From NCBI RefSeq assembly GCF_002953715.1, contig NZ_CP025012.1, positions 1,674,001-1,738,000 of the forward strand: 64,000 nucleotides of DNA. Direction: 5' to 3'. The notes under the pieces are model-generated. The model saw only the letters and a list, made by a program, of their open reading frames with translations, was not told where the DNA came from and did no database searches. Below, in pieces: positions 5,617 through 14,462 of the stretch (position 1 is the stretch's first letter; the number at the start of each line of letters is the position of its first letter). This stretch comes from Rhizobium leguminosarum. GTDB lineage: Bacteria; Pseudomonadota; Alphaproteobacteria; Rhizobiales; Rhizobiaceae. Made by a program: the position numbers and the translations under genes.

Positions 5617-6336
5617 TCAAGCAACCACACGCGGATCGAAGCCTTCGAAGGTCATTTGGTCTGCGTTTGCAAATGTAAGCCGGCGCGCCTCTTCGTCACG
5701 CACCGTCCAGGTGATGACAGGAATGCCCTTTTCGCGTTCGCTGGTGATAAAGGGGTTCGGCAGGTCGCCATAATGATAAGAGATGAAATCGAGACCGATC
5801 TCCATCGCCTTCGCATGTGTCTTGAACGCCTCCGGCGTGTTGCCGTCGGCCGTCAGCCCGAGCGGGTAGGGTGAGCCAAGCGCCTTCAGATCGCGCAGCA
5901 GCCAGTGGTCAAAACTCATCAGCGCCACCTTGCCATCATAGCCTTCGAGCACCTCGAGAACAGCCTCGGCGAAACCTTCGTCCTCGGCCTCGCGGCCCTT
6001 GAGCTCCAGCACCAGCGGCACCTTGCCCTTGACGAGGTCGAGGAGCTGGCGCAGCGTCGGCACCTTGTCGCTCGTGCCGCCAATGGCGATCAGTCCGAGT
6101 TCCCGGGAGGTGCGCTCGCGGATGTCGCCGTGGAGGTTGCACAGGCGCTGCAGGTCCTCGTCGTGAAAGATCACCGGTACGCCGTCGGAGGCGTAGTGCA
6201 GGTCGCATTCGATCGCAAAACCCGCTTCGACGGCGCGCGAGAAGGCGGACAGTGTGTTTTCCCAGACATGCGTGTTGAGATCGTGATAGCCGCGATGGGC
6301 GACCGGCAGGTCCCTGATCCAGGCAACATTGGTCAT
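5617..6336 (-). CDS. Glycerophosphodiester phosphodiesterase family protein
   Basis: 239 residues of a GDPD TIM barrel: VAHRGYHD near residue 12 (catalytic His and Arg), ENTLSAFSRAVEAG, IECDLHYASDGVPVIFHDEDL near 44-62 (metal-binding Glu/Asp and second catalytic His) and LVLELKG near 109. Members hydrolyse glycerophosphodiesters to glycerol-3-phosphate and an alcohol. No signal peptide is visible, so it is probably cytoplasmic. Its ATG overlaps the stop of the upstream RidA gene (ATGA), so the two are translationally coupled. Confidence 0.88.
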   Translation of the reverse strand: MTNVAWIRDLPVAHRGYHDLNTHVWENTLSAFSRAVEAGFAIECDLHYASDGVPVIFHDEDLQRLCNLHGDIRERTSRELGLIAIGGTSDKVPTLRQLLDLVKGKVPLVLELKGREAEDEGFAEAVLEVLEGYDGKVALMSFDHWLLRDLKALGSPYPLGLTADGNTPEAFKTHAKAMEIGLDFISYHYGDLPNPFITSEREKGIPVITWTVRDEEARRLTFANADQMTFEGFDPRVVA

Positions 6337-6939: not shown

Positions 6940-7776
6940 ATGTTCCGATCGAGTCTTGTCGCTCTGCTTCTCGCCAGCGTTTCCGCCAATGCATGGGCGG
7001 CTGCGCCCGCGGTTAGCGCTGCGATCGCGACCGGCCTCGTCGCACATCGCGCGGTCTACGATCTGGAACTGAAGGACGCCTCGGACCGCTCCGGCATCGC
7101 CGGCATGTATGGTCGCATGGTCTATGAGTTCGACGGCAGCTATTGCCAGGGCTTCACCACCAATTTCCGCTTCGTGACGCAGATCGACACCGGCGACAGC
7201 GTGCGTGTCAGCGACCAGCAGACCAAGACCTTCGAGAACCTGAAGGACGGCAAGTTCACCTTCGACACCAAATCCTTCACCGACGAGCAGCTCGACAAGG
7301 AGGTCAACGGTGCGGCGCAGGATCAGCCTGATGGCGTCAAGGTCGATCTCAGGCAGCCGGCGAGCCGCGAGCTGCAGCTTGCTGAAAGCCGTTTTCCCAC
7401 TGAACATATGCTCGATGTGATCCAGCACGCCAAGGACGGCAAGCGCTTCTTCGAGGCGCGCGTCTTCGACGGTTCCGATGACGGCGACAAGTCGCTGGCG
7501 ACGACGACGATCGTCGGCAAGCAGGAGACACCGATCGCCGAGGAAGCCGATGCCGGCAATGCGGGCGCCTTTTCCAAGACGGCCTTCTGGCCGGTGACGA
7601 TCGCCTATTTCAACGAGAATGCGAAATCCGATGCTTTGCCGGTCTACCGCATGTCCTTCAAGCTCTATGAGAACGGCATCACCCGCGACCTGACGATGGA
7701 CTACGGCGATTTCGTCCTGACCGGCAAGCTCGCCAAGCTGGAGCTGCTCGACCGCAAGGCCGAGGTTTGCAAGTAG
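6940..7776 (+). CDS. eipB: Periplasmic cell-envelope integrity protein EipB (DUF1849)
   Basis: 278-residue protein with a Sec signal peptide (hydrophobic core ALLLASVSANAWA, likely cut near residue 20) followed by a DUF1849 beta-spiral domain. LVAHRAVYDLELKDA, MVYEFDGSYCQGF and MSFKLYENGITRDL are family landmarks. Only two cysteines are visible in the mature part, one in SYCQGF and one at the penultimate position, matching the conserved disulfide described for Brucella EipB. EipB supports envelope integrity in the periplasm of Rhizobiales. Single gene with its own divergent promoter region. Confidence 0.85.
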   Translation: MFRSSLVALLLASVSANAWAAAPAVSAAIATGLVAHRAVYDLELKDASDRSGIAGMYGRMVYEFDGSYCQGFTTNFRFVTQIDTGDSVRVSDQQTKTFENLKDGKFTFDTKSFTDEQLDKEVNGAAQDQPDGVKVDLRQPASRELQLAESRFPTEHMLDVIQHAKDGKRFFEARVFDGSDDGDKSLATTTIVGKQETPIAEEADAGNAGAFSKTAFWPVTIAYFNENAKSDALPVYRMSFKLYENGITRDLTMDYGDFVLTGKLAKLELLDRKAEVCK

Positions 7777-7782
7777 GCTCGC

Positions 7783-7800
7783 CTGTCATAAAACTGTATC
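7783..7800 (+). promoter_or_regulatory. Pho-box-like sequence upstream of the TelA operon
   Basis: CTGTCATAAAACTGTATC: a perfect CTGTCAT half-site, four A bases, then CTGT-ATC, so the second CTGT sits at the 11-base period of PhoB direct repeats. It matches about 11 of 14 positions of CTGTCAT-N4-CTGTCAT and is followed by an A/T-rich ATAAAA. It lies 159 bases before the TelA start and just after the eipB stop. PhoB binding is inferred from sequence alone. Confidence 0.5.
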
Positions 7801-7958
7801 ATAAAATTCACTATGGTTCGGCGATCAGCGATGACTGAGTCGCCGTCTGTCGTCCTGCTTTTCGGGTCGGTGCGATCCTAGCGGGCAAGCCATTGCGATG
7901 ACGTCTATCTTTTAGACCGCGTAGACCATTACGCATCGCAAGCTTGAAAGCCCGAACC

Positions 7959-9035
7959 ATGGCCGATACCGATCTCGCGACTGTTCAAAATGCCGCCCTG
8001 CCGGTTGTTGTCGCCGATCCGGCGGAAATTGCCCGCATTTCCGGTAGCATCAATATCACCGACCGCGCCGGCATCTCGGTCTATGGTGACCGCGCCCAGC
8101 AGGCGGTCAGCGATTATGCCGACAGGATCCTGCGCGAAGTCCGCAACAAGGACCTCGGCGATGTCGGCCGCCTGCTGACCGACATCATCCTCAAATCGAA
8201 GAGCCTGGATCCGGCGTCATTGAAGGATAAGGGTTTCCTCAGTCGCATGTTTCTCTCGGCCAAGGCCCGGCTCGAACGCTTCAAGGCGGAATTCGAGGAT
8301 GTGGCCGGCCAGATCGACCGGATCGGCCTCGAGCTCGACCGTCACAAGGATACGCTGAGGCGCGACATCGCGCTGCTCGACGACCTGCATGAGGAAACCC
8401 GGCAATCGATCATGCGGCTCGAGGCCTATGTCCAGGCCGGCAAGACTTTCGCCGAGCATTTTCGCAGCGTCGAGCTGCCGAGACTGAAGGCGCAAGCCGA
8501 GGCGGCGGCAACGGGCCCCGGCGGGGGCATGTTGGAGGCGCAGACTTATCAGGACAGCCTGCAGGCGCTCGACCGGCTGGAAAAGCGGGTCTTCTACCTG
8601 CAGCAGGCCCGCCAGCTCGGTATCCAGCAATTGCCGCAGATCCGCATCGTTCAGGCGGGCGACGAAACGCTGATCGAGAACCTGCAGGCGACTTCGGCGC
8701 TGACGGTTCCGGCCTGGAAGCAGAAGATGGTGATCCTGCTCGGCCTGACGCGGCAGAAATCGGCGCTCGACCTGCAGAAGGCGGTGACCGATGCCACCAA
8801 CGACATGATCCGCCAGGCATCCGAGATGATGAAGGATCAGGCGATCGCCATCGAGCAACAGTCGCAGCGCGGCATCGTCGATATCGACACGCTCGCCAAG
8901 GCGAACAGGGATCTGATCGACACGATATCAGGCGTGCTGCAGGTTCAGGAGGAGGGCCGGCGAAAGCGGGCGCTCGCCGAGCAGCAGATGGAGCAGATGA
9001 CGATCGAACTCAAGAAGGCGATGACCCAGGCGTGA
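7959..9035 (+). CDS. TelA / toxic anion resistance family protein
   Basis: 358 residues (from ATG 7959; a TTG five codons earlier is possible). It has the TelA (PF05816) pattern of long amphipathic helices: a short N-terminal region, a coiled-coil body with LERFKAEFEDVAGQIDRIGLELDRH near 110 and RRDIALLDDLHEETRQSIMRLE near 135, and the central QLPQIRIVQAGDETLIENLQ block, ending in another coiled coil. No signal peptide or membrane segment is seen. TelA proteins are linked to tellurite and other envelope stresses but their molecular activity is unknown. It overlaps the next gene by GTGA and leads a four-gene unit with the VWA lipoprotein, an XpaC-like protein and a second binding-like protein. 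Confidence 0.88.
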   Translation: MADTDLATVQNAALPVVVADPAEIARISGSINITDRAGISVYGDRAQQAVSDYADRILREVRNKDLGDVGRLLTDIILKSKSLDPASLKDKGFLSRMFLSAKARLERFKAEFEDVAGQIDRIGLELDRHKDTLRRDIALLDDLHEETRQSIMRLEAYVQAGKTFAEHFRSVELPRLKAQAEAAATGPGGGMLEAQTYQDSLQALDRLEKRVFYLQQARQLGIQQLPQIRIVQAGDETLIENLQATSALTVPAWKQKMVILLGLTRQKSALDLQKAVTDATNDMIRQASEMMKDQAIAIEQQSQRGIVDIDTLAKANRDLIDTISGVLQVQEEGRRKRALAEQQMEQMTIELKKAMTQA

Positions 9036-10618
9036 TCGGCAAGATGACGATGCGAGCACTGCTTTCAGGCCTGGCACTTCTTGCCGCTCTGCCTCTTGCC
9101 GGCTGCAATCCCTTCGGTCAGGGGCCGGATTTCTCGATCGTATCGGGGTCGGAGAACACCGTTCTACAGCCGATCGTCGAGGAATTCTGCAAGCAGAAGA
9201 ACGCCACCTGCACCTTCAAATATGAAGGCACGCTCGATATCGGCCTGGCGCTGCAGAGCGACCAGGGTGTCGCGCAGGATGCGGTTTGGCCGGCCTCCAG
9301 CGTCTGGGTCGACATGTTCGACACCAAGCGCCGCGTCAAGAGCCTGACCTCGATCGCTCAGACGCCGGTGGTCTTGGGTATACGCAGATCGAAGGCGCAA
9401 CAGCTTGGCTGGATCGGCAAGGATGTCTTCATGAAAGACATTCTCGCTGCCGTCGAGAGCGGATCACTGAAGTTCCTGATGACTTCGGCGACGCAATCCA
9501 ATTCGGGCGCCAGCGCCTATCTCGCCATGCTGTCGAGCGCGCTCGGCAACAAACCGGTGATCGAACCCGGCGACCTCGACGACAGACACGTCCAGGAGAG
9601 CGTCCGGTCGCTGCTTTCAGGAGTCGTGCGCTCTTCCGGCTCCTCCGGCTGGCTTGCCGATCTCTACGTCGAATCCGCCGGCAAGGGCACGGTCTATGAC
9701 GCGATGTGGAATTACGAGGCGGTGCTGAAGGAAACCAACGACAAGCTCGCCGCCCTGTCGCAGGAACCGCTTTACGCGATCTATCCGGCTGATGGTGTGG
9801 CCATGGCGGATTCGCCGATCGGTTTCGTCGATCATGGCCGCGGTGCCGAAGTCCAGACCTTCTTCAACGATCTGCTCGCCTATCTGAGCTCGGCCCCGGT
9901 GCAGCAGCGCATCGCCGATACCGGCCGGCGCATTCCGCTGACCGGCGTTGCCGCAAAACCGGACCCAAGCTGGAATTTCGATCCCGCTCGGCTCGTGACC
10001 GCGATCCGCATGCCGGAGGCGGGCGTCATCCGCCAGGCGCTCACCCTTTATCAGGCAGCACTGCGCAAGCCGTCGCTGACCGCGCTCTGCCTCGATTTTT
10101 CAGGCTCGATGCAGGGTGACGGCGAGGACCAACTGCAGAAGGCGATGCGTTTCCTGTTGACACCAGATGAAGCGAGCAAGGTGCTGGTGCAATGGTCGCC
10201 CGCCGATCAGATCATCGTCATTCCTTTCGACGGCAGCGTGCGCAACACCTTCATGGCGAGTGGAAACCCGCTGGAGCAGCAAGGGCTGCTGAACGAAATT
10301 TCCCGACAGAAGGCCGATGGCGGCACCAACATGTATGCCTGCGCCGAACAGGCCCTGCGGCAGATTGCCCGAACCGACAGGCTCTCGACCTATCTGCCTG
10401 CCATCGTCATCATGACCGACGGCAAGTCCGATGATCAAAGCCAGGCTTTTATGCGCGCATGGAACGCGACGGAGCCGCATGTGCCGATCTTCGGCATCAC
10501 ATTCGGCGATGCCGACAAGACCCAGCTCGACAGCCTCGCCAAGCTGACCTCAGCGCGCGTCTTCGACGGCGGTTCGGATCTCGCCACCGCCTTCCGCACG
10601 GCGCGAGGCTACAATTAG
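9032..10618 (+). CDS. Lipoprotein: binding-protein-like domain fused to a VWA domain
   Basis: 528 residues. The lipobox LAGC places the lipidated Cys at residue 25, so the protein should be anchored in the envelope. Residues about 33-320 look like a periplasmic solute-binding fold (DAVWPASSVWVDMF near 84, TSATQSNSGASAYLAML near 151, YAIYPADGVAMADSPIGFVD near 248). Residues about 345-528 form a von Willebrand A domain with an intact metal site: DFSGS at 355-359, Thr 432 in GGTNMY and Asp 463 in MTDGKSDD. This suggests a metal-dependent protein-binding module tied to a ligand sensor. The GTG start overlaps the telA stop. Its binding-like part resembles the product at 11243-12349, which lacks VWA. 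Ligand and partner are unknown. Confidence 0.8.
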   Translation: MIGKMTMRALLSGLALLAALPLAGCNPFGQGPDFSIVSGSENTVLQPIVEEFCKQKNATCTFKYEGTLDIGLALQSDQGVAQDAVWPASSVWVDMFDTKRRVKSLTSIAQTPVVLGIRRSKAQQLGWIGKDVFMKDILAAVESGSLKFLMTSATQSNSGASAYLAMLSSALGNKPVIEPGDLDDRHVQESVRSLLSGVVRSSGSSGWLADLYVESAGKGTVYDAMWNYEAVLKETNDKLAALSQEPLYAIYPADGVAMADSPIGFVDHGRGAEVQTFFNDLLAYLSSAPVQQRIADTGRRIPLTGVAAKPDPSWNFDPARLVTAIRMPEAGVIRQALTLYQAALRKPSLTALCLDFSGSMQGDGEDQLQKAMRFLLTPDEASKVLVQWSPADQIIVIPFDGSVRNTFMASGNPLEQQGLLNEISRQKADGGTNMYACAEQALRQIARTDRLSTYLPAIVIMTDGKSDDQSQAFMRAWNATEPHVPIFGITFGDADKTQLDSLAKLTSARVFDGGSDLATAFRTARGYN

Positions 10619-10625
10619 GACAGGC

Positions 10626-11243
10626 ATGCGCAACTGGCTCGGCAATGACGGCAACTGGATCGTGGCGGGACTGGCGGCGGCAATCACCGTGCCGCTCTTG
10701 AGCTTTGTCGCCGGCATGCCCTTCTGGATCGCCGTCATCATAGCCCTTCTGGTCTTTGCCGGCCTCGTCATTCTGCTTGCGCCGCGCCGGCTGTTCGAAG
10801 GCCTCGATATCAAGAGCATCGGCAGCGGACGCATCGCCTTTGCCCGCGACCTGCTGGAGGCCGCCGTTCCCTTTGCCAAACGCCTGGAGACTGCAGCGGA
10901 TGCGATCGGTGACAAGCGGATGGCAGCCGCTGTCCGGCATCTCGCTGAGATTGCCGCCGATGTCTTTCGCAAGGTCGAGGCCAAGCCCGAAAGCGCCAAT
11001 GCCGTGCGGCGGTTCCTCTCCTACTATCTGCCGCGTGCCGCCGAGGTGGCGGAGGGTTTTGCCGTCATCGAGGCCAAGCGCGTTCCCGACCCCAAGCAAC
11101 TGGAGGAAGTGCGCAGCGTGCTGGTCAAGCTCGAAGAGGCCTTCGTCCACTATGCCGACAGCCTGGTCGATGAGGAACTCGGCACGCTCGACACCGATCT
11201 GCGCCTCATTCAGGCATCGCTCAAAGAGGATATCGGACGCTGA
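10626..11243 (+). CDS. XpaC-like membrane protein (5-bromo-4-chloroindolyl phosphate hydrolysis family)
   Basis: 205 residues with two membrane helices near the N-terminus (WIVAGLAAAITVPLLSFVAG and WIAVIIALLVFAGLVILLA, about 11-52) followed by a helical cytoplasmic domain with alternating charged heptads up to LIQASLKEDIGR. This topology and pairing with TelA match the XpaC (PF10112) family; in Bacillus xpaC is next to a telA homologue. The biochemical name of the family comes from an old phenotype and does not prove phosphatase activity. It starts 7 bases after the VWA gene and its TGA overlaps the ATG of the next gene. Confidence 0.7.
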   Translation: MRNWLGNDGNWIVAGLAAAITVPLLSFVAGMPFWIAVIIALLVFAGLVILLAPRRLFEGLDIKSIGSGRIAFARDLLEAAVPFAKRLETAADAIGDKRMAAAVRHLAEIAADVFRKVEAKPESANAVRRFLSYYLPRAAEVAEGFAVIEAKRVPDPKQLEEVRSVLVKLEEAFVHYADSLVDEELGTLDTDLRLIQASLKEDIGR

Positions 11244-12349
11244 TGGCCCTTTCTCGTCGCGCCTTTGGAGTGGGACTGCTCGGAGCCGGCGTCGTCGGCA
11301 CCGGCGGTTATTTCGCCGTCCGGGATCGGCCGGAATTGCAAGGCCTGCTCGGCAGCCGCACGACGTTGTTCGGCTTCGTCGGCGGTGAGAAGGAGGCCTT
11401 CCTCGCCGACCCCGACGTCGTCAGGGCGCTCGGCGGATACGGATTGACGGTGGACAGCCGCGTGGCCGGCTCCGTCGAGATGGTCCGCGAACAGGCGCTG
11501 CTGTCGCAGCATCCGCAATTCCTCTGGCCGTCCTCCTCGATCATGGTCGATATCGCCAGGCAAAACGGCATTTCTATCCGCAACGACCGCGTTGTGCTGA
11601 ACACGCCCATCGTCGTCTATTCCTGGCAGCCCGTTGTCGATGGATTGATGAAAGCGGGATTGGTGACGGTGACGAACGATGGCCATCATCAGCTCGACCT
11701 CAAGGCGCTGCTTGATGCGATCCTTGCCGGATCCGACTGGTCGAAGCTCGGCGTCAATTCGCTCTATGGCCGCGCCCGCATCGTCTCGACCGATCCCAAC
11801 CGCTCGAATTCCGGCTTCATGTTCGCAGGCCTGGTGCTCAGCCTTTTCAGCGGCAATGTCGCGACATCAGGCGACCTCGCAACCTTCGGCGGCAAGGTGC
11901 AGGCGATCTTCCGCAACATGGGCTTCAAGTCGCCGTCGTCAGGCAAACTTTTCGATCAGTATCTCGCAGGCGGCCTCGGCGGTGAGCCGATGATCGTCGG
12001 CTATGAGAACCAGCTGGTCGAATGGATCCTCGCCGATCCCGCGCGCTGGGACCGCATCAAGGCGAGTGCCGGCGCAAAGCCGGTGGTGCTCTATCCGCGT
12101 CCGACCGTCTATTCAGCGCATCCGCTGATCGTCGTCGACGAGAATGCCAACCGGCTGATCGAAGCGCTGTCCAGCCCGAAGCTCCAGGAACTTGCGTGGA
12201 CGAGGCATGGCTTCCGCGGTCCGCTGGGGACCGCCACCGGCAACGCCGACAGCGCGATTGGCACCTTGCTGCCGGCCGAGGTCGATGCCATCCTGCCGAT
12301 GCCGGACGCAGGCGTCATGCTGTCGCTGCTGCCGACGCTGGCAAGCTGA
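11243..12349 (+). CDS. Binding-protein-like protein of the TelA operon
   Basis: 368 residues. The N-terminus SRRAFGVGLLGAGVVGTGGYF has two arginines before a hydrophobic stretch, which could be a Tat-type signal or an uncleaved anchor. The rest resembles extracellular solute-binding proteins and is a relative of the first domain of the 9032 product: compare FLWPSSSIMVDIA with AVWPASSVWVDMF, RSNSGFMFAGLVLS with QSNSGASAYLAMLS, and VVLYPRPTVYSAHPLIVVDE with YAIYPADGVAMADSPIGFVD. No permease or ATPase gene is nearby, so a transport role is not supported; a sensing or scaffold role with TelA is inference. Last gene of the four-gene unit. Confidence 0.7.
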   Translation: MALSRRAFGVGLLGAGVVGTGGYFAVRDRPELQGLLGSRTTLFGFVGGEKEAFLADPDVVRALGGYGLTVDSRVAGSVEMVREQALLSQHPQFLWPSSSIMVDIARQNGISIRNDRVVLNTPIVVYSWQPVVDGLMKAGLVTVTNDGHHQLDLKALLDAILAGSDWSKLGVNSLYGRARIVSTDPNRSNSGFMFAGLVLSLFSGNVATSGDLATFGGKVQAIFRNMGFKSPSSGKLFDQYLAGGLGGEPMIVGYENQLVEWILADPARWDRIKASAGAKPVVLYPRPTVYSAHPLIVVDENANRLIEALSSPKLQELAWTRHGFRGPLGTATGNADSAIGTLLPAEVDAILPMPDAGVMLSLLPTLAS

Positions 12350-12527: not shown

Positions 12528-13295
12528 ATGGCATTGCCTGATTTTTCTATGCGCCAGCTTCTTGAGGCAGGCGTTCACTTCGGCCACCAGACGCATCGCT
12601 GGAACCCGAAGATGAAGCCGTACATCTTCGGCGATCGCAACAACATTCACATCATCGATCTGGCCCAGACCGTTCCGATGCTGTCGCGCGCCCTTCAGGT
12701 CGTCAGCGACACCGTTGCCCGCGGCGGCCGCGTTCTCTTCGTCGGCACCAAGCGCCAGGCGTCTGAGATCATTGCCGACAGCGCCAAGCGCTCGGCCCAG
12801 TACTACGTCAACTCGCGCTGGCTCGGCGGCATGATGACGAACTGGAAGACGATCTCCAACTCGATCCAGCGCCTGCGCAAGCTCGACGAGATCCTGAACG
12901 GCGAAGCCCAGGGCTTCACCAAGAAGGAACGCCTGAACCTCGAGCGCGAGCGTGAAAAGCTCGACAAGGCCCTCGGCGGTATCCGCGATATGGGCGGCAC
13001 GCCTGACCTGATGTTCATCATCGACACCAACAAGGAAAAGATCGCGATCGACGAAGCCAAGCGCCTCGGCATCCCGGTTGTCGCCATCATCGATTCGAAC
13101 TGCGATCCGGACCTGATCGACTATCCGATCCCGGGTAACGACGACGCATCGCGCGCGATCGCTCTTTACTGCGAGCTGATCTCCCGCGCCGCCATCGACG
13201 GTATCGCGCGTCAGCAGGGCTCTTCCGGCCGCGATCTCGGCGCATCCTCCGAGCTTCCGGTCGAACCGGCTCTCGAGGAAGCAGCCGAAGGCTGA
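12528..13295 (+). CDS. rpsB: 30S ribosomal protein S2
   Basis: 255 residues, the usual size. Starts [39 protein letters not shown] is the conserved S2 N-terminal signature and [19 protein letters not shown] the second. S2 binds the 30S head-body junction with S1. AAGGAG stands 7 bases ahead of the ATG. It opens the rpsB-tsf-pyrH-frr cluster. A perfect hairpin follows the stop at 13304-13323. Confidence 0.98.
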
Positions 13296-13535: not shown

Positions 13536-14462
13536 ATGAGCGAGATTACGGCTGCAATGGTGAAGGAACTGCGCGAAAAGACCGGCGCAGGCATGATGGA
13601 CTGCAAGAAGGCTCTTGCTGAAACCGGTGGCGACATGGAAGCGGCGATCGACTGGCTGCGCGCCAAGGGCATCGCCAAGGCCGACAAGAAGTCCGGCCGC
13701 ACCGCTGCCGAAGGCCTCATCGGCGTTTCGAGCCAGGGCACCAAGGCCGTCGTCGTCGAAGTCAATTCCGAAACCGACTTCGTCGCCCGTAACGATGCCT
13801 TCCAGGAACTCGTCCGTGGCATCGCCAAGGTCGCCGTCTCGACCGACGGCACTGTCGACGCCGTTGCCGCTGCGACCTACCCGGCATCCGGCAAGTCCGT
13901 GTCCGACACCATCAAGGATGCGATCGCAACGATCGGCGAGAACATGAACCTGCGCCGTTCGACCGCTCTATCCGTCGAGGACGGCGTCGTCGCCACCTAT
14001 ATCCACAATGCTGTTTCCGACGGCCTCGGCAAGCTCGGCGTTCTCGTTGCGCTGAAGTCGACTGGCGACAAGGAAGCCCTGAATGCCATCGGCCGTCAGG
14101 TCGCCATGCACATCGCGGCGACCGCGCCGCTGGCGATCCGGCCGGAAGAAGTCGATGCCGCCGTCGCCGAGCGCGAGCGCAACGTCTTCATCGAGCAGTC
14201 GCGCGCTTCCGGCAAGCCTGACAACATCATCGAAAAGATGGTCGAAGGCCGCATGCGCAAGTTCTTCGAGGAAGTCGCTCTTCTCTCGCAGGCTTTCGTC
14301 ATCAATCCGGATCTGACGGTCGCCGCCGCCATCAAGGAAGCTGAAAAGGCCGTCGGCGCGCCGATCGAAGTTGCCGGCATGGCCCGTCTGCTGCTCGGCG
14401 AAGGCGTCGAGAAGGAAGAGACCGATTTCGCGGCCGAAGTTGCGGCTGCCGTCAAGGGTTGA
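13536..14462 (+). CDS. tsf: Elongation factor Ts
   Basis: 308-residue guanine-nucleotide exchange factor for EF-Tu. Visible signatures are [18 protein letters not shown] near residue 10 and [18 protein letters not shown] near 75, containing the TDFVARN motif that contacts EF-Tu. GAGGAAGCTA precedes the ATG. It is 240 bases after rpsB, a spacing that allows separate regulation, and is followed by a strong hairpin. Confidence 0.98.

Follow-up and report, generated by a model that had tools for sequence, protein, structure and literature searches.

A horizontally moving gene block of Rhizobium leguminosarum that joins TelA and XpaC to paired solute-binding proteins: a possible trans-envelope stress module

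What could bring a TelA protein together with two proteins of the solute-binding type when no transporter is encoded beside them? This question is raised by four adjacent genes in a stretch of 64,000 nucleotides from Rhizobium leguminosarum (contig NZ_CP025012.1, positions 1,674,001 to 1,738,000 of the forward strand), referred to here as the window. The genes encode TelA, a lipoprotein in which a solute-binding protein (SBP) domain is fused to a VWA domain (SBP-VWA), an XpaC-like membrane protein, and a second binding-like protein (SBP2). A preliminary description of the window regarded them as one unit with no permease or ATPase of its own; the four open reading frames and their junctions lie where it had placed them, and the block contains no permease or ATPase gene. 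The GTG start of SBP-VWA overlaps the telA stop (this start, at 9032, and an in-frame ATG at 9044 are equally possible), seven bases separate SBP-VWA from xpaC, and xpaC and SBP2 overlap in TGATG. The host genome, of Rhizobium type, measures 7.79 Mb in six contigs, and the nearest named loci, among the matches listed, are also from Rhizobium, with 91-97% identity in SBP-VWA. The answer offered here, which we hold tentatively and at somewhat less than an even chance, is that the block is a horizontally moving, self-contained trans-envelope stress module in which the paired SBPs control TelA through the VWA domain and XpaC.

The two binding-like proteins are relatives. No Pfam, NCBIfam or PADLOC model recognises SBP2 at E up to 0.1, and searches of solved structures with single sequences, and with the SBP2 profile, returned nothing useful. 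Its suspected likeness to binding proteins is substantiated by the AlphaFold model (pLDDT 86.3, pTM 0.81), which matches the folds of periplasmic proteins that bind thiamine (Z 22.3), sulfate (22.2 and 21.8) and ferric iron (21.5), in effect a tie, with root-mean-square deviations (rmsd) of 2.9-3.7 over 269-275 residues. When five diverse proteins of each kind were compared with hhalign, SBP2 aligned with SBP-VWA at 98.5% (E 2.3e-15), and enlarged profiles gave 99.1% (E 2e-18) over 291 columns. The window's genome holds 15 PF13531 matches, of which the 14 besides SBP-VWA score no more than 10.2% against either SBP profile; a comparison of single sequences with profiles is a weak test, but it succeeds for the true pair, the single SBP-VWA sequence scoring 94.2% against the SBP2 profile. 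Motifs common to the two proteins (GSE/GGEK, PSS, SNSG, SSG and YE) would, to judge from the fold, line a ligand pocket. In SBP2, all 91 aligned rows agree at Y254, E255 and Q257, and 90 agree at K50 and S188, where one row has a gap; the rows here and in the SBP-VWA alignment are mostly close relatives. On this profile evidence SBP2 is the sister paralogue of the SBP half of SBP-VWA, and kinship to that putative sensor domain provides a name for proteins that annotated plasmids list as hypothetical. The N-terminus of SBP2 carries a twin-arginine-like SRRAF stretch, the arginine pair of which is invariant in the 21 rows of one alignment (A6) and lost in three of four plasmid copies.

In SBP-VWA, Pfam recognises SBP_bac_11 (E 5.2e-11) and VWA (E 1.5e-09) within one chain. 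Identical in all 92 aligned rows are the lipobox cysteine Cys25, three residues of the metal ion-dependent adhesion site (MIDAS; DxSxS, T, D), namely D355, S357 and S359, and the positions G39-S40-E41, S156-N157, G159, G203-S204-S205-G206, N227-Y228-E229 and D260; the MIDAS residues T432 and D463 are kept in 91 and 90 rows, the remainder being gaps. The portrayal of this protein as lipid-anchored, with a binding-like domain fused to a MIDAS-intact VWA domain, thus agrees with the conservation of both the lipobox and the metal site. In the predicted model (pLDDT 81.6, pTM 0.69), in which the mutual placement of the two domains is not to be trusted, residues 28-345 match a sulfate-binding protein (Z 25.0, rmsd 2.8, 280 residues) and residues 344-528 the VWA domain of ANTXR2 (Z 20.7, rmsd 2.4, 170 residues). 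With a lipobox and an SBP ahead of it, the VWA domain is read as extracytoplasmic. The fusion is already recognised as an architecture, as an annotated record carries the product name 'substrate-binding and VWA domain-containing protein'.

The two SBPs occur together. Among 249 genomes of the order, SBP-VWA is found in six (E up to 1e-20) and SBP2, at E up to 0.001, in seven, including a marginal case; the same six genomes hold SBP-VWA and a strong SBP2 at adjacent coordinates, with TelA beside all of them, and TelA itself occurs in nine of the 249. Among 224 genomes of the class of G369, a genome that was itself chosen for carrying the block, TelA is present in 27 (23 over the cut-off), SBP-VWA in one and SBP2 in the same one. 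In these two samples, both searched for TelA, SBP-VWA and SBP2, neither strong SBP match appears without the other or without TelA. A phylum-wide draw yielded SBP-VWA in 7 of 299 genomes, and a class-wide draw TelA in 19 of 190, with the block in the window's genome and in G004, G042, G112 and G148. TelA is therefore widespread without the SBPs.

The set also persists where its order changes, three arrangements being seen, and where the flanking genes are unrelated. A scan of GTDB genomes found at least 572 relatives of SBP-VWA, the best 80 of which, all from records with alphaproteobacterial names, were used. Among these 80 loci, XpaC adjoins SBP-VWA in all (a contig end cuts XpaC in L104), SBP2 adjoins in 79 (L104 ends earlier, and the gene is broken in L081), and TelA stands beside SBP-VWA and XpaC in 78, the exceptions being L073 and L090; the SBP-VWA gene itself is broken in L094. 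Wherever TelA is present in these loci, the order is TelA/SBP-VWA/XpaC/SBP2. A plasmid collection adds Sphaerotilus and Variovorax (Betaproteobacteria), Nonomuraea (Actinomycetota; a record of 11.85 Mb catalogued as a plasmid, with an XpaC-like gene in its block) and Deinococcus; it has SBP-VWA in six records, three of them Variovorax, and SBP2 in the same six. The order is SBP2/TelA/SBP-VWA/XpaC-like in Sphaerotilus, Nonomuraea, Variovorax and G369, SBP-VWA/XpaC/SBP2/TelA in G623, and SBP2/SBP-VWA/XpaC-like, with no TelA, in Deinococcus. The retention of the set while gene order changes argues for one function. The view of the four genes as one unit is likewise borne out by their recurrence, rearranged, in other classes and phyla: a comparison of gene order across Rhizobiales and other phyla, which the preliminary description had proposed, finds the set clustered, not scattered, in Alphaproteobacteria, Betaproteobacteria and an actinomycete, and in Deinococcus with no adjoining TelA. 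Because TelA was not found beside three copies, the SBP-VWA/XpaC/SBP2 triad looks like the core, with TelA as a near-constant partner. In the Deinococcus stretch (L023, 7905-11111), which contains no TelA, a WG-repeat protein follows on the other strand, and the triad may stand alone.

That the block moves is seen in a genome of the same genus (G224), which has an empty site: the flanks are 94% identical, and 4.57 kb are replaced by 102 bp of unrelated sequence. Thirty-four comparison loci were picked for holding SBP-VWA, so that they inform on partners versus flanks and not on how frequent the block is; every one of the 34 also has SBP2, and BLAST at 1e-8 detects TelA in 28 and XpaC in 26, numbers that rise when profiles and gene position are taken into account; the window's flanking genes eipB and rpsB occur in only three, all Rhizobium. 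Sequence comparison thus shows the four genes behaving as a unit that moves together horizontally, and chance neighbourhood is rejected in view of the co-occurrence, the changes of gene order and the empty site. Inspection by eye of the block edges revealed neither direct repeats nor an integrase. The eipB-rpsB slot of a further genome, G283 (L143, 548-1273), encodes a 241-residue pentapeptide-repeat protein (Pfam E 6.9e-26) that probably carries an export signal, and with its three states (block, empty and this protein) the spot is perhaps a small integration hotspot.

Patchy presence and a clean empty site would also suit an anti-phage or anti-plasmid defence module, akin to the defensive role proposed for Ter/TelA systems. 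TelA has been proposed to form sub-membrane structures that keep out phages; a comparative study of phages, drawing on earlier work, places TelA together with a VWA protein in such structures, which would shut out xenobiotics as well as phages (PMC7824862). A plasmid copy lies close to a Wadjet JetA gene, and a putative PD-(D/E)XK phosphodiesterase stands beside L128. However, PADLOC recognises none of the four block proteins at E up to 0.1 (their neighbours were compared with Pfam and not with a library of defence systems), no match was found in phage records or in pattern scans of viral contigs, and the genome has no TerD; a defence role appears quite improbable. A phage-borne system was rejected on the same phage records, and on viral contigs that were negative with short peptide patterns from SBP2 and from alignments A2 and A1.

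A further possibility is that the two proteins are orphan SBPs feeding an ABC (ATP-binding cassette) permease encoded elsewhere. SBPs can work with distant permeases, both proteins have the fold of transporter SBPs, and L076, L099 and L103 have ABC genes no more than a few kb away. Yet no permease recurs next to the rearranged copies, and both proteins are far from the genome's other PF13531 proteins; this explanation seems hardly credible. Twenty neighbours from ten loci, scanned with Pfam, belong to different families and include one ABC permease, one major facilitator superfamily protein, one Mg-chelatase-type AAA protein and one glycerophosphodiester phosphodiesterase, with no constant transporter neighbour among them. 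A transporter remnant is disfavoured, as no adjacent permease recurs, and membership of the binding-like genes in a nearby transporter, which the preliminary description had considered, does not hold in the loci examined.

The location of the block in Rhizobium, between eipB and rpsB (Table 1), fits the envelope setting suggested earlier. Mutation of eipB renders Brucella sensitive to compounds that disrupt the envelope, and a review speaks of the eipB-bamA region as an envelope cluster (PMC10787603). This location is one of several points that could favour an assembly or metal-loading machine, in which the VWA lipoprotein and SBP2 would be a periplasmic chaperone pair maturing envelope proteins on an XpaC-TelA platform. 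A Mg-chelatase-type AAA gene stands beside L125, on the other strand, and the hits of the SBP-VWA profile include a Mg-chelatase subunit and a VWA chain of BatB type; assembly machines frequently make use of VWA domains. Nevertheless, the AAA gene is one of the 20 neighbours scanned, the other 19 not being AAA ATPases, and the eipB-rpsB location is not shared outside Rhizobium, which makes such a machine distinctly unlikely.

Table 1. Features of the four-gene block and its flanks (window coordinates)
Feature	Coordinates	Strand	Remarks
block leader	7778..7958	+	presumed promoter region; gained or lost together with the block; missing at the G224 empty site
telA, 358 aa	7959..9035	+	PF05816, E 2.5e-93
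SBP-VWA lipoprotein, 528 aa	9032..10618	+	lipobox Cys25; solute-binding domain ~28-345; VWA ~344-528
xpaC, 205 aa membrane protein	10626..11243	+	PF10112, E 5.6e-27
SBP2, 368 aa	11243..12349	+	RR-type N-terminal signal or anchor; periplasmic-binding-protein fold
eipB, upstream flank	6940-7776		PF08904
rpsB, downstream flank	12528-13295		Ribosomal_S2
tsf, after rpsB	13536-14462		EF_TS

The two remaining proteins are firmly placed in their families. TelA scores 313.2 bits against PF05816 (curated cut-off 30), covers profile positions 3-331 of 332, has no membrane span in its sequence and is the only PF05816 match in the window's genome; NCBIfam gives sub-cut-off matches only, to the VWA part of SBP-VWA and, by chance, to TelA. 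XpaC reaches 95.4 bits against PF10112 (Halogen_Hydrol/XpaC; curated cut-off 29.8). In its sequence, two hydrophobic spans lie close to the N-terminus, the C-terminal part reads as helical, and the arginines that follow the spans suggest a cytoplasmic C-terminus. Matches of the XpaC profile to SecY, covering a single membrane-span stretch, were not believed. In an unrooted tree of 39 TelA rows, a branch with 100/100 support separates some TelAs of four-gene loci from others, and a single clade of them is rejected by the approximately unbiased test (p 2.5e-7) on the 33 rows left after six long-branch rows had been dropped, with a warning from the tool that long branches meet. Either the unit has exchanged its TelA, or four-gene TelAs have given rise to some of the free ones. 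Two TelAs that group with the plasmid type, in G145 and G012, are followed by a protein of about 252 residues (L138, 9312-10070, and L139, 9882-10643, respectively), with no XpaC detected.

In Firmicutes, TelA-XpaC pairs belong to envelope stress responses. The xpaC-yaaN pair of Bacillus subtilis is in the core sigma-W regulon (PMC3498285). In Lactococcus, a stress transcriptome shows raised llmg_1115 (XpaC-like) and telA1, and xpaC is described as belonging to CesSR-mediated resistance (PMC3139573, PMC10269926). The lmo1966-lmo1967 genes of Listeria rise on bacteriocin exposure, and the lmo1967 (telA) mutant is 4-fold more susceptible to nisin and 2-fold more to tellurite; the same 2026 paper describes the mechanism of Listeria TelA as not known (PMC12791056). 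The mutant phenotype, the naming of PF05816 by Pfam as a toxic anion resistance family, and SBP folds that resemble oxyanion binders, among others, are what one would expect if the SBPs held a toxic anion or a cell-wall-active compound in the periplasm while TelA and XpaC repaired or shielded the membrane, with no transmembrane signal. Stoichiometric holding in the absence of export or chemistry would be costly, however, and the MIDAS VWA domain and strict gene set would point to a complex rather than a sponge; resistance by capture is therefore judged unlikely.

The trans-envelope stress module favoured here would work as a receptor with a binding-protein sensor, not as an importer. Like the preliminary description, we infer a coupling of a periplasmic ligand to TelA through XpaC. 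The two SBP domains would recognise the same or a similar ligand, small and probably anionic, whose presence would report a toxic compound or damage to the envelope. Ligand binding may close the SBP domains, and the VWA metal site may then grip a partner, either SBP2 or the periplasmic loop of XpaC, upon which XpaC would relay the signal across the inner membrane. TelA would respond as a sub-membrane protective scaffold, as is thought for TelA-XpaC in the envelope stress of Firmicutes. The ligand, the direction of the signal and the action of TelA are put forward provisionally, with a confidence somewhat short of one half. It is conceivable, at a level below even, that the block represents an undescribed class of trans-envelope receptor, in which sister SBPs, one of them VWA-fused, read an anionic ligand and switch TelA via XpaC; candidate ligand classes would be a toxin, an oxyanion or an envelope fragment. 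If this is true, TelA is the effector of a signalling system and not a resistance protein in itself. Through the module TelA acquires defined partners, whose ligand-binding end is open to purification and screening, and what TelA responds to thereby becomes testable.

Several observations weigh against this interpretation. The shared fold leaves the ligand unfixed, since binders of thiamine, sulfate and iron match equally well. Of the six co-occurrence genomes, one is the window's own and three come from a single genus (g169), which leaves about three lineages among the five that were not selected, and a computed figure of 1.3e-10, which presupposes independence, is given no weight here; the genome search first scores only some candidates per genome, such that absences can be misses, and a marginal, partial SBP2 match (7.5e-4, G570) occurs without SBP-VWA. 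Two Streptomyces plasmids carry an SBP2 relative; the one at L113 7803-9032 has 30% identity to that of Nonomuraea, with no partner detected in 17 kb. TelA is not beside the Deinococcus copy (L023) or the two loci from metagenome-assembled genomes (L073, L090), where it could lie elsewhere in the genome, and signalling to TelA may therefore not be universal. At the XpaC position, PF10112 is matched in L128 and not in L022-L025, L126 or L124; the XpaC-like proteins of Betaproteobacteria, Nonomuraea and Deinococcus, and that of L124 from the window's own class, stay below Pfam thresholds, and the distant group aligns weakly with alphaproteobacterial XpaC (hhalign 66.8%, E 5e-5). ABC transporter ATPase genes lie a few kb from the block in at least two loci (L099 and L103). 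The eipB neighbourhood is common only within Rhizobium and therefore lends weak support to an envelope link, which otherwise draws on Firmicutes TelA-XpaC pairs that have no SBPs; no expression, phenotype or binding data for the four-gene form were found.

Some neighbours deserve mention in their own right. A glycerophosphodiester phosphodiesterase gene lies in the window itself (5617-6336, other strand, with two genes between it and TelA) and just upstream of TelA in L076 (1796-2599), and an open reading frame of 108 residues resembling this enzyme has the same position in L092 (8306-8632). In Sphaerotilus (L022, 5921-8990), only 4 bases separate the end of a PhoX-family phosphatase gene from SBP2, both on one strand, an arrangement that looks like co-transcription, and a Variovorax plasmid copy (L025, 3503-16816) sits between a flotillin/OB-fold pair and the Wadjet JetA gene.

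Literature on the four-gene set was not found by title and abstract start among the matches listed; the main comparative paper on Ter/TelA systems (Anantharaman and others 2012) may mention it. Rhizobial mutants of block genes were likewise absent from titles and abstract starts among the matches listed, the transposon-sequencing papers there being judged on these alone. A passage of PMC7105596 concerns another VWA protein. The TelA-XpaC pair is thus already known from Firmicutes, and the paired SBP/VWA arm, not found among the literature matches listed, is what the block adds to it.

Comparison with known systems places the block between several of them. The Firmicutes TelA-XpaC pair, rightly cited in the preliminary description as a known linkage, is encoded as xpaC-yaaN, lmo1966-lmo1967 and llmg_1115-1116, the same families as the first and third genes of the block; the cited passages mention no SBP or VWA partner and place the pairs in sigma-W, LiaSR or CesSR responses. 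Ter/TelA systems, in the passage noted above, likewise contain TelA and a VWA protein in one system with proposed sub-membrane structures. They differ in that the VWA domain of the block would be extracytoplasmic, following a lipobox and an SBP, and identity with a Ter system was rejected because TerD (PF02342) has no match in the window's genome. The SBPs of ABC importers, such as sulfate-binding Sbp and the thiamine- and ferric-binding proteins, have the same fold as those of the block (Z ~21-25), whereas the block has no permease or ATPase, one of its SBPs is fused to a VWA domain, and the two are paired paralogues in a separate sequence group. Finally, PDB 6lkg, titled as two-component signal transduction, is a close fold match (Z 21.6 to the SBP-VWA model, and 20.2) and, judged by its entry title, a precedent for this fold in signalling; the block differs in having no histidine kinase, and its output would be XpaC-TelA.

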